Positions 5,098 to 35,013 of a DNA stretch of 64,000 nt are shown one piece after another. The notes beneath the pieces are model-generated. The model was not told the DNA's origin and did no database searches. It worked only from the letters and a program-made list of their open reading frames with translations. Every line of letters begins with the position of its first letter. The first letter of the stretch is position 1. A program made the position numbers and the translations under genes. The stretch is from Bacillota bacterium (GTDB lineage: Bacteria; Bacillota; Dehalobacteriia; UBA4068; UBA4997), in contig JAETNY010000005.1 in the NCBI GenBank assembly GCA_021771915.1, positions 62,001 to 126,000 on the forward strand. Reading direction: 5' to 3'.

Positions 5098-5112
5098 AAC
5101 TGAACAAAATCA

Positions 5113-5141
5113 AACAACCCTGCCAAAACGGCAGGGTTGTT
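5113..5141 (+). terminator. intrinsic terminator after SLH/Ig protein
   Basis: A perfect 12-bp stem (AACAACCCTGCC / GGCAGGGTTGTT) with a 5-nt loop is followed by a T-run, 15 nt after the stop codon at 5097. Confidence 0.9.
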
Positions 5142-5186
5142 TTTTTACTTATTATGCACTGGCAAGACATGTATAAAAAAATTGGA

Positions 5187-5216
5187 TTGACATTTAATCA
5201 AGAAAAATGCTATAAT
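5187..5216 (+). promoter_or_regulatory. sigma-A-type promoter of small hydrophobic peptide
   Basis: TTGACA at 5187-5192 and TATAAT at 5211-5216, spacer 18 bp. The predicted start near 5223 gives a leader of about 125 nt before the peptide start codon, long for a 31-codon gene and able to fold. Confidence 0.85.
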
Positions 5217-5349
5217 AAAAAAACAAAGAGTTGAAACTTAAATTGGCGGTTTGCCCTCAGAAGAACATAAATACATCTGTGTAAGGTGTATGGTTGGAAG
5301 ATGAGGGATTAGGGCCCTCCTCAAATTGTTCGGTGAGGAGGTGATGCTA

Positions 5350-5445
5350 ATGTTTTGGTTAAGCGTAGCGGCATTAGTTATGCAAACAATCCAACTTTGT
5401 CTGCAAGCTGTTGAGTTTATATTAAATCATGGCAAACAAAAATAA
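5350..5445 (+). CDS. 31-residue hydrophobic peptide, candidate type I toxin
   Basis: The short ORF starts ATG-TTT-TGG and ends TAA at 5443-5445; residues 2-27 are mostly hydrophobic (F-W-L-S-V-A-A-L-V, later F-I-L) and the tail is basic (H-G-K-Q-K). A GAGGAGG ribosome binding site at 5335-5341 lies 8 nt upstream of this ATG; an in-frame ATG at 5344 is too close to it. The site is buried in a perfect 8-bp hairpin (CCTCCTCA 5316-5323 / TGAGGAGG 5334-5341). A convergent antisense RNA with consensus promoter faces it and shares its terminator. This is the organisation of type I toxin-antitoxin loci, but the peptide matches no family I recognise. Alternative: a regulatory small membrane protein. 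Confidence 0.7.
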   Translation: MFWLSVAALVMQTIQLCLQAVEFILNHGKQK

Positions 5446-5475
5446 CCGCCCACTCTACAAAGTAACGGTTATTTT
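5439..5475. terminator. bidirectional terminator shared by peptide mRNA and antisense RNA
   Basis: Stem AAAATAACCG (5439-5448) / CGGTTATTTT (5466-5475), 17-nt loop, with A-rich and T-rich flanks so that it can end transcripts from both strands. It overlaps the peptide stop codon. Confidence 0.8.
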
Positions 5476-5527
5476 TTTATAGCTTCTACTTCTGTGGGCT
5501 GACCTGATTTGAGGGTCAGCTCTTTGC
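5439..5527 (-). ncRNA. predicted convergent antisense RNA (antitoxin) of the 5350-5445 peptide
   Basis: On the minus strand TTGACA (5562-5557) and TATAAT (5539-5534) are spaced by exactly 17 bp, placing a start near 5527. Transcription towards the peptide gene would end at the shared hairpin, giving an RNA of roughly 88 nt. It contains a hairpin (GCTGACC / GGTCAGC). Two 6-nt motifs of its template, TCTGTG (5491-5496) and TGAGGG (5510-5515), recur in the same order in the mRNA leader (5276-5281 and 5302-5307), so the RNA could pair there in addition to the terminator stem. No reading frame is implied. Confidence 0.65.
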
Positions 5528-5602
5528 GTTTTTATTATAACACTCCGTCTGGTTTTTGTCAAGCCCATTATTTAGTTGATATGCCAGCTGTTTTATAACG
5601 CC

Positions 5603-7060
5603 TTAAGCGCGCTTCTCCTCCATTTCTGGAATATCCAGCGGCTGCAAATTAAGTACATGCCGCTTAACCTGACCGCTTTCATTATGTAAAGCCGCATTAG
5701 CATTGGCCAGCATCAGCTTAATCCGATTTTCCTGATTGGTACGGGAAGCGCCGGGGTCATAATCAATAGCTACAATGTTGGCCTCCGGGTGGCGCTCTTT
5801 AACCGCCCTAATCATACCCTTAGCCACGATATGATTAGGCAGACAGCCAAAAGGCTGCGCCGACACAATATTATTCACGCCGCTTTCAATCAAATCCAGC
5901 ATTTCGCCCGTAAGCAGCCAGCCCTCGCCCATTTTAACGCCCTCGCCAATGCAGCCTTTGGCCGCGCGCTGAACCTGCCCAAAAGTGGCCGGCGGCATAA
6001 AAGTACCGTCCAGACGGATAACATTGCGCATGGCCTGCTGACCAATCGTCAGCAGCTTAAACAAAGGTTTCAACAAACAGCTTTTCAAAGTTGTACGGCT
6101 ATAAAGTTTGGCGTCCACAAAATTGTTATTCAAACTATACAGCATAAAATCCAAAACCCCGGTAACCACCGGCTGCGCGCCCTGACTAATCAGATAATTT
6201 TCCAGGTCATTGTTACCCAGCGGCGCATATTTCATGTAAATCTCGCCAACAATACCAACCTTGGGCTTAACCACATTCTGTCGCTTAATCTGCTTAAACG
6301 CGTTTATAATCTTAAAATAATTCGGCCCCAGCAGCAAATACTGCCCCGTAGCAAAAGCATAATCAAGCTGATTGGTGATAATCTCCACAACCTTATCCGT
6401 ATGCCCTGGCACTTCCTCATAAGGCTTGCACTGATTTTTCAGCCATAAAATCATGTCGCCATAATAACAGGCAAACAGACAGCGCAGCAACGTGCCCTTG
6501 CTTAAATAAAAACCACCCTCGGCCTGCAACTTATCCAGCCGCAAAGCAATCACGGGAATATGTGAAAGACCGTTCTTCTCCAGCGCCTTGCGCAGCAGAT
6601 AAATATAATTGCTGGCACGGCAGCCGCCGCCCGTCTGTGGCAACAGCAGGGCAATCTTATCCAAATCATATTTGCCGCTTTTGATGGCGTCCAAAAGCTG
6701 ACCGATTGCCAACAGCGCCGGATAACAGGTGTCATTATGCACATTCTGCAAACCATGCTCCGTCACACTATAACCAACATTCTCCAAAAATTCAATATTG
6801 TAACCCTGGCGGCGCAAAATACCGCCAATCAGCTTAAAATGAACCGGCAACATCTGCGGCACCAAAATAGTATAATCACGCTTCATATCCGTCGTAAACT
6901 GACGTAGGGGCATTTCATGCTCATGCAGCGGCATTTCCAATTCTTCGCGCTCGGCCTGGCTGAAAATCATTTCCCAAAGCGAGGTAAACGGTTCCGCCAG
7001 GCGATTTAGATGTGTATGCAAATTCTGGTTATTATCGGTTTTGTCTGACTTTTTCGACAT
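5603..7060 (-). CDS. 2-hydroxyacyl-CoA dehydratase-type protein (HgdB/DUF2229-like half)
   Basis: The 485-residue protein matches the C-terminal portion of the long clostridial 2-hydroxyacyl-CoA dehydratase/activase fusion proteins. Visible marks are the D-T-C-Y-P-A motif (about residue 111), L-P-Q-T-G-G-G-C-R-A-S-N-Y (about 140), and near the C-terminus Q-P-F-G-C-L-P-N-H and D-Y-D-P-G-A-S; the cysteines are candidate iron-sulfur ligands. Family members use ATP-driven one-electron reduction for difficult dehydrations or reductions; the substrate cannot be read here. A GGGAGG site precedes the start. It lies 77 bp downstream of the activase gene at 7138-10104, so the two probably form one operon and one complex. 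The next terminator downstream on this strand is the one at 5439-5475. Confidence 0.8.
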   Translation of the reverse strand: MSKKSDKTDNNQNLHTHLNRLAEPFTSLWEMIFSQAEREELEMPLHEHEMPLRQFTTDMKRDYTILVPQMLPVHFKLIGGILRRQGYNIEFLENVGYSVTEHGLQNVHNDTCYPALLAIGQLLDAIKSGKYDLDKIALLLPQTGGGCRASNYIYLLRKALEKNGLSHIPVIALRLDKLQAEGGFYLSKGTLLRCLFACYYGDMILWLKNQCKPYEEVPGHTDKVVEIITNQLDYAFATGQYLLLGPNYFKIINAFKQIKRQNVVKPKVGIVGEIYMKYAPLGNNDLENYLISQGAQPVVTGVLDFMLYSLNNNFVDAKLYSRTTLKSCLLKPLFKLLTIGQQAMRNVIRLDGTFMPPATFGQVQRAAKGCIGEGVKMGEGWLLTGEMLDLIESGVNNIVSAQPFGCLPNHIVAKGMIRAVKERHPEANIVAIDYDPGASRTNQENRIKLMLANANAALHNESGQVKRHVLNLQPLDIPEMEEKRA

Positions 7061-33357: not shown

Positions 33358-33579
33358 ACTTCATTACTCCTTCAAAATCCCGATTTACCATTCTAATTAT
33401 ACTATCTCTGTAAGTTTTACACAAAATGCAGCTTAGTTAAAATGCCGGAAGTATCGGCCATCAACACAAAAGGTAAAAAGGACTATCTTTTCCATATTTC
33501 CCCAAAAATCTGGCTTTTCCGCAAACACTATGTTATAATATATACACTAAGCGCCTCTTGGCAGAAGGGAGGTGTTAAA

Positions 33580-33669
33580 ATGAATATACTATTCTCAATA
33601 GCCACTGCTATCGTGGCAAATATAATCTCCTATTATATTTGCAAATGGCTAGATAGTAGACGGCGCTAG
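33580..33669 (+). CDS. Fst/Ldr-like type I toxin peptide, module 1
   Basis: A 29-residue peptide: a 20-residue hydrophobic span (I-L-F-S-I-A-T-A-I-V-A-N-I-I-S-Y-Y-I), then K-W-L-D-S and three arginines. A hydrophobic helix followed by Trp-Leu and a charged tail is the hallmark of the Fst/Ldr family of membrane-damaging type I toxins. TATAAT is at 33534-33539 with a poor -35; the mRNA would run from about 33546 to the hairpin ending at 33738. GGGAGG is the ribosome binding site and can pair with CCTCTT just upstream. The 5' AGCGCC can pair with GGCGCT at the end of the ORF. An antisense RNA faces the gene. Confidence 0.8.
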   Translation: MNILFSIATAIVANIISYYICKWLDSRRR

Positions 33670-33710
33670 GTAGCCTAGGTCTAAGTCGCACCTACATATA
33701 AGCGAAATAG

Positions 33711-33738
33711 AAAAACCCCAGCTGCAACTGGGGTTTTT
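33711..33738. terminator. bidirectional terminator of module 1
   Basis: Perfect 11-bp stem AAAAACCCCAG / CTGGGGTTTTT, loop CTGCAA, functional in both directions. Confidence 0.88.
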
Positions 33739-33783
33739 CGCTGTACATTTTTGTGTTAAAATGAACATACTATTTTGCTATCT
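33711..33783 (-). ncRNA. predicted antisense antitoxin RNA, module 1
   Basis: The minus-strand promoter is TTGACA-17 bp-TATAAT (-10 at 33795-33790), with a start near 33783 and an end at the shared hairpin, giving about 73 nt. Positions 33753-33774 repeat the toxin start region 33572-33593 with one mismatch in 22, so the RNA can pair across the toxin start codon as well as at the terminator stem. This matches RNA II of the pAD1 par system. Confidence 0.75.
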
Positions 33784-33974
33784 GTTGATATTATACCACC
33801 AACCACCCTTTTTGTCAAGCAAAATACCTCCCCCAGATTTCCCGAAGAAGATTTTACCAGACTGTCTTATAAACACCCTCAATCTTCCATTTTTCCCCAA
33901 AAATCTGGCTTTTCCGCAAACAATATGTTATAATATATATACTAAGCGCCTCTTGGCAGAAAGGAGGTGTTAAA

Positions 33975-34064
33975 GTGAATATCTTGTTTTCCATAGCCTC
34001 CGCTATAATGATAAATATAATCTCCTATTATATTTGCAAATGGCTAGATGGTGAAAGGCGCTAG
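33975..34064 (+). CDS. Fst/Ldr-like type I toxin peptide, module 2 (GTG start)
   Basis: A 29-residue paralogue of the module 1 peptide with the same S-Y-Y-I-C-K-W-L-D core and tail G-E-R-R. It starts with GTG, unlike the other three, and has A-I-M-I-N instead of A-I-V-A-N. AGGAGG is 6-8 nt upstream and can pair with CCTCTT across GGCAGAA. TATAAT is at 33929-33934. The 3' GGCGCT is complementary to the 5' AGCGCC. The weaker start codon may lower its expression. Confidence 0.78.
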   Translation: MNILFSIASAIMINIISYYICKWLDGERR

Positions 34065-34105
34065 TTAGCCTAGGCTTCAGTTCGTGCCTACATATAAACG
34101 AATTA

Positions 34106-34136
34106 GAACCCCCTCGACCGGAACTCGAGGGGGTTC
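34106..34136. terminator. hairpin terminator of module 2, diverged stem
   Basis: Perfect 12-bp stem GAACCCCCTCGA / TCGAGGGGGTTC with loop CCGGAAC. The stem sequence differs from modules 1, 3 and 4 yet pairing is complete. The T-runs are weak, so termination may be less efficient. Confidence 0.75.
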
Positions 34137-34180
34137 GTTGTGCATTTTTGTGTTAAAATGAATACCTTGTTTTGTTTTCT
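34106..34180 (-). ncRNA. predicted antisense antitoxin RNA, module 2
   Basis: TTGACA-17 bp-TATAAT on the minus strand (-10 at 34192-34187) gives an RNA of about 75 nt. Positions 34150-34173 repeat the toxin 2 start region 33967-33990 with 2 mismatches in 24, including the module-specific CTTGTTTT. Confidence 0.75.
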
Positions 34181-34376
34181 GCGATAATTATACCAGCAAC
34201 CACCCTTTTTGTCAAGCACAAAAAAAATATCTCCCCCAGATTTCCCGAAGAAGATTTTACCAGACTGTCTTATAAACACCCTCAATATTCCATTTTTCTC
34301 CAAAAATCTGGCTTTTCCGCAAACACTATGCTATAATATATTCACTAAGCGCCTCTTGGCAGAAAGGAGGTGTGAA

Positions 34377-34466
34377 ATGAGCGTCATATTTTCTATAGCC
34401 TCTGCTATCGTGGCAAATATAATCTCCTATTATATTTGCAAATGGTTAGATAGTGGAAAGCGCTAG
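34377..34466 (+). CDS. Fst/Ldr-like type I toxin peptide, module 3
   Basis: A 29-residue peptide starting M-S-V-I-F-S-I-A-S, with the shared A-N-I-I-S-Y-Y-I-C-K-W-L-D-S core and tail G-K-R. TATAAT is at 34332-34337. GGAGG lies 5 nt before the ATG, the closest spacing of the four, and pairs with CCTCTT upstream. GCGCT at the ORF end can pair with AGCGC in the leader. Confidence 0.8.
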   Translation: MSVIFSIASAIVANIISYYICKWLDSGKR

Positions 34467-34506
34467 TTAGCCTAGGTTTAAGCCGTACCTACATATAAGC
34501 GGAATA

Positions 34507-34536
34507 GAAAGACCCCAGCTGCAACTGGGGTCTTTC
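34507..34536. terminator. bidirectional terminator of module 3
   Basis: 12-bp stem GAAAGACCCCAG / CTGGGGTCTTTC, loop CTGCAA. An A-to-G change relative to module 1 is matched by a T-to-C change on the other arm. Confidence 0.88.
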
Positions 34537-34579
34537 GTTTTACATTTTTGTGTAAAATGAACGTCATACTTTATTTTCC
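34507..34579 (-). ncRNA. predicted antisense antitoxin RNA, module 3
   Basis: TTGACA-17 bp-TATAAT on the minus strand (-10 at 34591-34586). The RNA of about 73 nt carries a repeat (34550-34572) of toxin 3 start sequence (34370-34392), 20 of 23 positions identical, including the module-specific CGTCATA. Confidence 0.75.
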
Positions 34580-34768
34580 AAATTAATTATACCACCACAA
34601 CAACACTTTGTCAAGCAAAATACCTCCCCCAGATTTTCTGAAGAAGATTTTACCAAACTGTCTTATAAACACCCTTAATATTCCATTTTTCTCCAAAAAT
34701 CTGGCTTTTTCGCAAACAATATGTTATAATATACTTACTAACGCCTCTGGCAGAGAGGAGGTGTAAGA

Positions 34769-34861
34769 ATGTACTTTTTTATCTCATTAGCCACTGTTGT
34801 CTTGGGTAACATAATCTCTCATTATGTTATCAAATGGTTGGATAGCAGATTTAGGCGGTAG
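34769..34861 (+). CDS. Fst/Ldr-like type I toxin peptide, module 4 (diverged)
   Basis: A 30-residue peptide, the most diverged copy: M-Y-F-F-I-S-L-A-T-V-V-L-G-N-I-I-S-H-Y-V-I-K-W-L with tail D-S-R-F-R-R, cited here only to show conserved K-W-L-D-S. TATAAT is at 34725-34730. The leader hairpin is changed to CCTCT-GGCAG-AGAGG, still able to pair near the GAGGAGG ribosome binding site. The end of the ORF (GGCGGTAGT) still complements the leader (ACTAACGCC) at 8 of 9 positions. Retained structure despite sequence change suggests selection. Confidence 0.78.
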   Translation: MYFFISLATVVLGNIISHYVIKWLDSRFRR

Positions 34862-34903
34862 TCAACCTAGGTCTAGGCTACCTTACTTAGTTAAAAAGCA
34901 TAG

Positions 34904-34931
34904 AAGAACCCCAGCTGCAACTGGGGTTCTT
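34904..34931. terminator. bidirectional terminator of module 4
   Basis: 11-bp stem AAGAACCCCAG / CTGGGGTTCTT with loop CTGCAA; again a compensated base pair relative to module 1. Confidence 0.88.
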
Positions 34932-34973
34932 TGTTGTACATTTTTTTGATGTCAGAATGTACTTTCTCTCATT
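34904..34973 (-). ncRNA. predicted antisense antitoxin RNA, module 4
   Basis: TTGACA (35008-35003), 17 bp, TATAAT (34985-34980) on the minus strand. The RNA of about 70 nt carries AGAATGTACTTT (34954-34965) plus CTCATT, matching toxin 4 start (34766-34777) and not the other modules. Confidence 0.73.
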
Positions 34974-35013
34974 GATATAATTATACCACCAACAACCCTT
35001 TTTGTCAAGCATA

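Follow-up and report, generated by a model that had tools for sequence, protein, structure and literature searches.

Do positions 5187–5562 of the window, i.e. the whole 64-kb stretch of DNA analysed here, hold a real type I toxin-antitoxin (TA) locus, and is the small hydrophobic peptide encoded there the founder of a new toxin family or a distant member of a known one? The first-pass annotation had proposed such a locus, with a peptide resembling neither Fst, Ldr nor TxpA. Here the sequence parts of the locus, its relatives in other genomes, the selection on its ORF and the folding and pairing of its two RNAs were analysed.

Two convergent promoters, a sequestered RBS and a common terminator

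The features of the locus are collected in Table 1. Inspection at base level confirmed the two facing promoters, both perfect and of the extended sigma-A type, the perfect 8-bp hairpin around the GAGGAGG ribosome binding site (RBS), the start and translation of the 31-residue hydrophobic ORF, and the bidirectional terminator, all of which had been described at first pass. Seven perfect promoters of this kind were counted in the 64-kb window versus 0.09 expected in shuffles, and four of the five besides this locus's own two fall in a separate array. From the promoter spacing, toxin transcription is predicted to start at ~5223 on the plus strand. The Shine-Dalgarno (SD) GAGGAGG occupies 5335–5341 and is sequestered in the 5316–5341 hairpin; the peptide translated downstream has a single hydrophobic segment and ends in a basic stretch (KQK), and the toxin stop codon lies within the terminator stem, whose arms are 5438–5448 and 5466–5476. 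The start codon at 5350 is right: the SD spacing fits, and no other ATG stays in register across the family. On the opposite strand, R1, a covariance model of the antisense RNA built from 17 relatives, predicts a 5′ hairpin, a single-stranded stretch and the terminator, in this order.

Table 1. Observed and predicted features of the locus, in window coordinates
Feature	Position	Strand	Basis
Toxin promoter, TTGACA-18-TATAAT, TG before −10	5187–5216	+	12/12 consensus
Predicted toxin mRNA, about 255 nt	5223–5480	+	positions of promoter and terminator
mRNA 5′ module, CAAAGAGTTGAAACTTAAATTGGCGGTTTGCCCTCAGAAG	5224–5263	+	near copy, in the same sense, of the antisense 5′ module
Leader helix, CCCTCA / TGAGGG	5254–5259 / 5302–5307	+	98% of cells paired, 9 leaders
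RBS hairpin, CCTCCTCA / TGAGGAGG	5316–5323 / 5334–5341	+	8 bp perfect, encloses GAGGAGG
Putative toxin ORF, 31 aa, MFWLSVAALVMQTIQLCLQAVEFILNHGKQK	5350–5445	+	translation, family, selection
Bidirectional intrinsic terminator, common to both RNAs	5438–5476	both	inverted repeat, A/T tracts
Predicted antisense (antitoxin) RNA, about 90 nt	5436–5527	−	covariance model R1
Antisense 5′ module, CAAAGAGCTGACCCTCAAATCAGGTCAGCCCACAGAAG	5489–5526	−	similarity to mRNA 5′ module
Antisense promoter, TTGACA-17-TATAAT, TG before −10	5562–5534	−	12/12 consensus

The peptide is under purifying selection and has spread within one genus

A single 33-residue query retrieved clearly related ORFs from three other genomes of the genus, in several copies each, and profile searches yielded 16 long peptides (31–33 aa, conserved residues MQxxQLxxQ) plus about 11 of a short form (27 aa, MTFLEVSALLMLLLAVADFA...), all in four of the nine genus genomes, those carrying the peptide being Peptococcaceae metagenome assemblies. 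Within this one bacterial genus the peptide thus exists in dozens of copies. No relatives were retrieved from the rest of the order, the class or the phylum sample of 398 genomes, and no relatives of the long peptide from the viral contigs, phages and plasmids searched. In its own genome no intact copy besides that of the window was found; two remnants there have retained their antisense RNAs.

The ortholog of the window locus (G007:C1), with flanks 96% identical, keeps the peptide frame, and its ORF carries two synonymous and no nonsynonymous changes. Across the peptide family dN/dS was mostly 0.1–0.3, and in the long groups the pooled proportions of changed sites were about 0.34–0.45 for synonymous versus 0.11–0.13 for nonsynonymous sites. 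This substitution pattern indicates that the 31-codon ORF is coding and under purifying selection, and that 5187–5562 is a real, selected locus. In related genomes the promoter, the RBS hairpin and the antisense promoter are conserved together with the ORF.

The antisense RNA outlives the toxin in decayed copies

Where the leader is intact, at 23 loci, the toxin promoter, a conserved AAAGAG start, the leader helix, the RBS hairpin, the ORF, the terminator and the convergent antisense promoter recur at near-equal spacing. No toxin ORF whose leader is intact has lost the antisense promoter, which is usually the stronger one (11.1/12 versus 9.65/12 for the toxin promoter across the 23 loci, paired p = 0.002). 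The R1 search revealed many further antisense copies in the genus, among them about 15 toxin-less copies, in most of which leader and toxin are absent and the antisense transcript and terminator remain; the reverse case, a toxin ORF without an antisense partner, was found only once, with leader and promoter absent there too. Loss of the toxin with retention of the antisense RNA is the decay pattern predicted for a TA pair, and these counts alone are only suggestive, since the toxin transcript is the larger deletion target. The kept antisense promoters add to them as TA evidence, scoring 11–12/12 in 10 of 15 toxin-less copies versus 0.05% of background positions; the two toxin-less copies in the source genome have weak antisense promoters (7/12 and 9/12). 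The type I TA assignment made at first pass is supported by the retention of all parts in about 25 paralogs, by the selection on the peptide, and by antisense promoters that are the stronger ones and antisense RNAs that persist without a toxin.

Rearranged copies were observed as well. In L124 (G005:C113) the two promoters and the beginning of the leader persist, RBS and toxin are gone, and the leader 5′ module is fused to the terminator. At L031, L047 and L054, the last codons of the toxin are replaced by an ~100-bp insertion that terminates in AAGTGTTCACA and sits at the extreme 3′ end of the ORF.

Leader folding and RNA pairing

In leaders of the window's type both helices are retained (99% of cells) and nearly invariant, so that covariation says little about them: in the nine leaders compared, the RBS hairpin is paired in 100% of cells and is present in the minimum-energy fold, and the CCCTCA/TGAGGG helix is mostly invariant with one compensatory change. 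In the terminator, a compensatory G-C to A-U change is tied to the TAG/TAA stop codons of relatives. Folding of subtypes 2 and 3 showed that their leaders can form either of two mutually exclusive hairpins. Upon in silico removal of the 5′ module, the RBS was predicted to become free, with the better ON fold, in 14/14 leaders of these subtypes, and the OFF fold was still best in 7/9 of the window's subtype. A processing-triggered RNA switch is accordingly backed by folding in subtypes 2 and 3 only, and none is claimed for this locus, as the RBS of its subtype mostly stays closed.

Two hexamers, TCTGTG (5277 and 5491) and TGAGGG (5302 and 5510), had been recorded as repeated in the leader and the antisense region. 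Both exist, but the analysis does not support them as a pairing or par-like feature. Among relatives TCTGTG is not conserved, and GAGGG with its CCCTC partner largely is. The antisense 5′ part was no more complementary to the leader than shuffled controls were, and not in a cognate-specific way, and the duplex energies of 23 cognate pairs were no more favourable than those of shuffles or non-cognate pairs, so leader–antisense pairing via the hexamers was rejected in the form first stated and the repeats alone are no evidence for pairing. A possible alternative contact from leader to terminator, GGCGGUUA with UAACCGCC, was noted by eye and in one minimum-energy fold.

The two RNAs begin with same-sense 5′ modules

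The antisense 5′ part resembles the leader in the same sense at 25 of 26 genus loci (p ≤ 0.02), and the leader and antisense modules match best within most subtypes. At the window locus, CAAAGAGTTGAAACTTAAATTGGCGGTTTGCCCTCAGAAG of the mRNA was aligned against CAAAGAGCTGACCCTCAAATCAGGTCAGCCCACAGAAG of the antisense RNA, with a local similarity beyond shuffles that is kept in the genus family, and at L132, a divergent locus, both RNAs have another sequence in place of the usual CCCTC (CCTTACTC and CCTTAACTC). Same-sense 5′ modules were also found in 8/8 other-order loci. Furthermore, Hol_Tox loci (PF16935, 'putative holin-like toxin') from phages and plasmids of Bacilli were examined by a test that needs no start sites: same-sense similarity reached p < 0.05 in 10 of the 13, with a median z of 3.9 versus −0.2 for complementarity, the similarity at one of the ten positive loci (L177) partly reflecting the promoter −10.

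We tentatively propose that in Hol_Tox-like type I systems, this divergent branch among them, the antitoxin RNA may carry, in addition to its 3′ complementarity, a same-sense copy of the toxin mRNA 5′ module, the two copies co-evolving, so that the antitoxin might act by 3′ pairing and by competition from a leader mimic. Competition as the role of the mimic is what we infer from the similarity; at several Hol_Tox loci the common element is not an obvious anti-SD, so that a shared hairpin for processing or stability has to be taken seriously as an alternative. In the part of the literature covered by the search, leader mimicry was not described.

A probable RNA-level relative of the Hol_Tox/TxpA-BsrG systems

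The peptide has no match above cut-off in Pfam or NCBIfam, PF16935 included, and the PF16935 profile found no match anywhere in the source genome. An Rfam search of the locus, at gathering level and at E ≤ 10, returned nothing relevant, the BsrG RNA (RF01412) giving no match even at E ≤ 10. The RNA model reached further: R1 also finds loci outside the genus in the same order (34–39 bits, all 94 positions) and gives only 11–21 bits on Hol_Tox loci of Bacilli. In G028, a genome of another family, three of five R1 loci encode PF16935 Hol_Tox (E 4.7e-12, 2e-6 and 4e-11), and the Rfam BsrG model hits one leader at E 1.4e-8, short of its gathering score. At the peptide level, profile comparison via intermediates with hhalign gave P 6e-6 for long versus short toxins and P 1e-5 for short toxins versus Hol_Tox, with probabilities of 85% and 82%; the profiles are shallow and built from few, short, hydrophobic sequences, and so count as weak evidence.

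As the PF16935 match is absent, the locus is not filed as Hol_Tox and is called an RNA-level relative; as R1 reaches Hol_Tox loci in the same order, it is best read as a divergent superfamily relative and not as an isolated invention. The earlier suggestion of a new toxin family therefore stands in part: judged by profile searches, the peptide family is new to Pfam and NCBIfam, but its RNA architecture is of a known kind and links it, weakly also by peptide, to Hol_Tox/TxpA-BsrG, one of the families set aside at first pass. Like the Hol_Tox/TxpA-BsrG (RatA/SR4) systems, the locus has predicted convergent overlapping RNAs with 3′ pairing, GC-rich sequestering of the RBS, a hydrophobic peptide of about 27–31 aa and a same-sense 5′ module common to both RNAs; unlike Hol_Tox, its peptide lies outside PF16935, has other conserved residues and is expanded only in one Peptococcaceae genus. 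RatA pairs with the txpA 3′ end and promotes txpA degradation, and SR4 also blocks bsrG translation (PMC6562991). The clostridial pairs CD2517.1-RCd8, CD2907.1-RCd9 and CD0956.2-RCd10 of C. difficile share convergent overlapping genes and a toxin with hydrophobic N-terminus and basic C-terminus, but their toxins are other peptides, of 34–59 aa (PMC6563280).

Other TA-like loci in the window and in relatives

At 33560–35010 the window contains four tandem units of ~397 bp, each with a perfect minus-strand TTGACA-17-TATAAT; plus-strand small hydrophobic ORFs occur in two units, e.g. MNILFSIATAIVANIISYYICKWLDSRRR at 33580, with a weak Ldr-like Pfam score. In this array the antisense is complementary to the leader and there is no mimicry, the opposite of the 5187–5562 locus. 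The array is a different type I TA family, and the first-pass view that the two are unrelated holds, with leader–antisense complementarity and no common 5′ module found at 33.8–35.0 kb. L072 (G006) and L133 (G005), which belong to two other species and are orthologous to window positions 5100–5603, hold an array-type TA-like locus (MQFLLTLSAAVMGNVISYYIVKWL...), and the same intergenic site holds a 5187–5562-type locus in the window and G007; the site appears to exchange unrelated TA modules.

At L146 / L181 (G013:C1, about 16.2–17.4 kb), two TA-like units of this locus's architecture carry a type I-C CRISPR-repeat-like sequence where the RBS hairpin and toxin start are expected; the repeat copies are scattered, with no regular CRISPR array in 5.4 kb, and the arrangement recalls CRISPR-linked TA systems. 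L128 (G006:C43, about 33.1 kb) has a small ORF, MSLQIRLRIGNFTLTIELKRKHSKTATGQK, a leader element, GGCGGTTAG, and an AACCGCC terminator; its peptide is basic and quite different from the main family despite the common GGCGGTTAG element. L125 (G001:C2, about 107.6 kb), from a genome that lacks the main family, has the same layout with an unrelated-looking peptide, MSIENFVGILSLCLTSFSIGYLLGNKK, both RNAs starting with GGAGCTACC.

Discussion

Taken from comparative sequence evidence, 5187–5562 of this gut Peptococcaceae bacterium is very probably a chromosomal type I TA locus with an antisense-silenced membrane toxin, related at a distance to Hol_Tox/TxpA-BsrG by its RNA architecture. The plus-strand RNA would encode a membrane peptide of a single helix, toxic once it is made, and with the SD locked in the leader hairpin the primary transcript is predicted to be poorly translated. 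The ~90-nt RNA from the strong opposite-strand promoter would end at the terminator of the toxin mRNA, and owing to this common terminator the last 40 or so nt of both RNAs would be perfectly complementary. The two terminator hairpins may be where pairing begins, and since their loops vary from paralog to paralog, they could make it cognate-specific. Cleavage of the duplex would follow, with RNase III the probable enzyme, as in the txpA/RatA pair, and the toxin would remain untranslated. The antisense 5′ module might stand in for the mRNA's own and compete for the same partner near the RBS. The peptide would have drifted beyond Pfam's reach while multiplying in one Peptococcaceae genus.

Convergent promoters, a common bidirectional terminator, an SD-sequestering stem-loop and a ~30-aa peptide are exactly the layout of par on the Enterococcus plasmid pAD1 (PMC7472228), and TGAGGG lies in both the leader and the antisense region, as could be expected of a par/Fst family member, whose convergent RNAs share a terminator and whose direct repeats give leader–antisense complementarity. 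Membership is nevertheless very unlikely: the peptide has no Pfam match to Fst/Ldr and lacks the Fst signature, a tryptophan between membrane helix and charged C-terminus (PMC7472228), in line with the unlikeness claimed at first pass, and the leader–antisense complementarity is at chance, the conserved relation being an inverted and not a direct repeat. We give a little more weight, though still a low one, to a small regulatory membrane protein that is no toxin and whose translation is tuned by the antisense RNA, given that purifying selection is compatible with any function and that a proven role is often absent for chromosomal type I systems (PMC7472228); many paralogs per genome and the ~15 antisense-only copies are addiction-like, unlike a housekeeping peptide.

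The multicopy state and the likeness of the two ends in inverted orientation would also suit a short mobile element whose terminal inverted repeats bear the promoters and whose peptide is incidental, a reading that ranks slightly below par/Fst in our estimate, for the peptide is under purifying selection, the similarity spans the transcribed 5′ modules, and phages and plasmids show the same feature at Hol_Tox loci that occur singly. Short ORFs are common, and a random one between promoter-like AT-rich DNA and a bidirectional terminator could in principle arise by chance; such an origin has next to no probability and is refuted by the promoter count, by the conservation of the ensemble in about 25 paralogs and by the selection on the ORF.

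The antisense-silenced toxin locus favoured here would give gut Firmicutes of a group for which our literature search found no published type I system an unannotated toxin family, along with antitoxin RNAs that stand alone, and would tie the peptide family to the widespread, little-studied holin-like toxin superfamily. The solitary antitoxins would be a natural record of the order of decay, toxin first. If true, the leader mimic would be a new mode of action for a type I antitoxin, and the common start of toxin mRNA and antitoxin RNA poses a question that is open to test in any laboratory Bacillus system.
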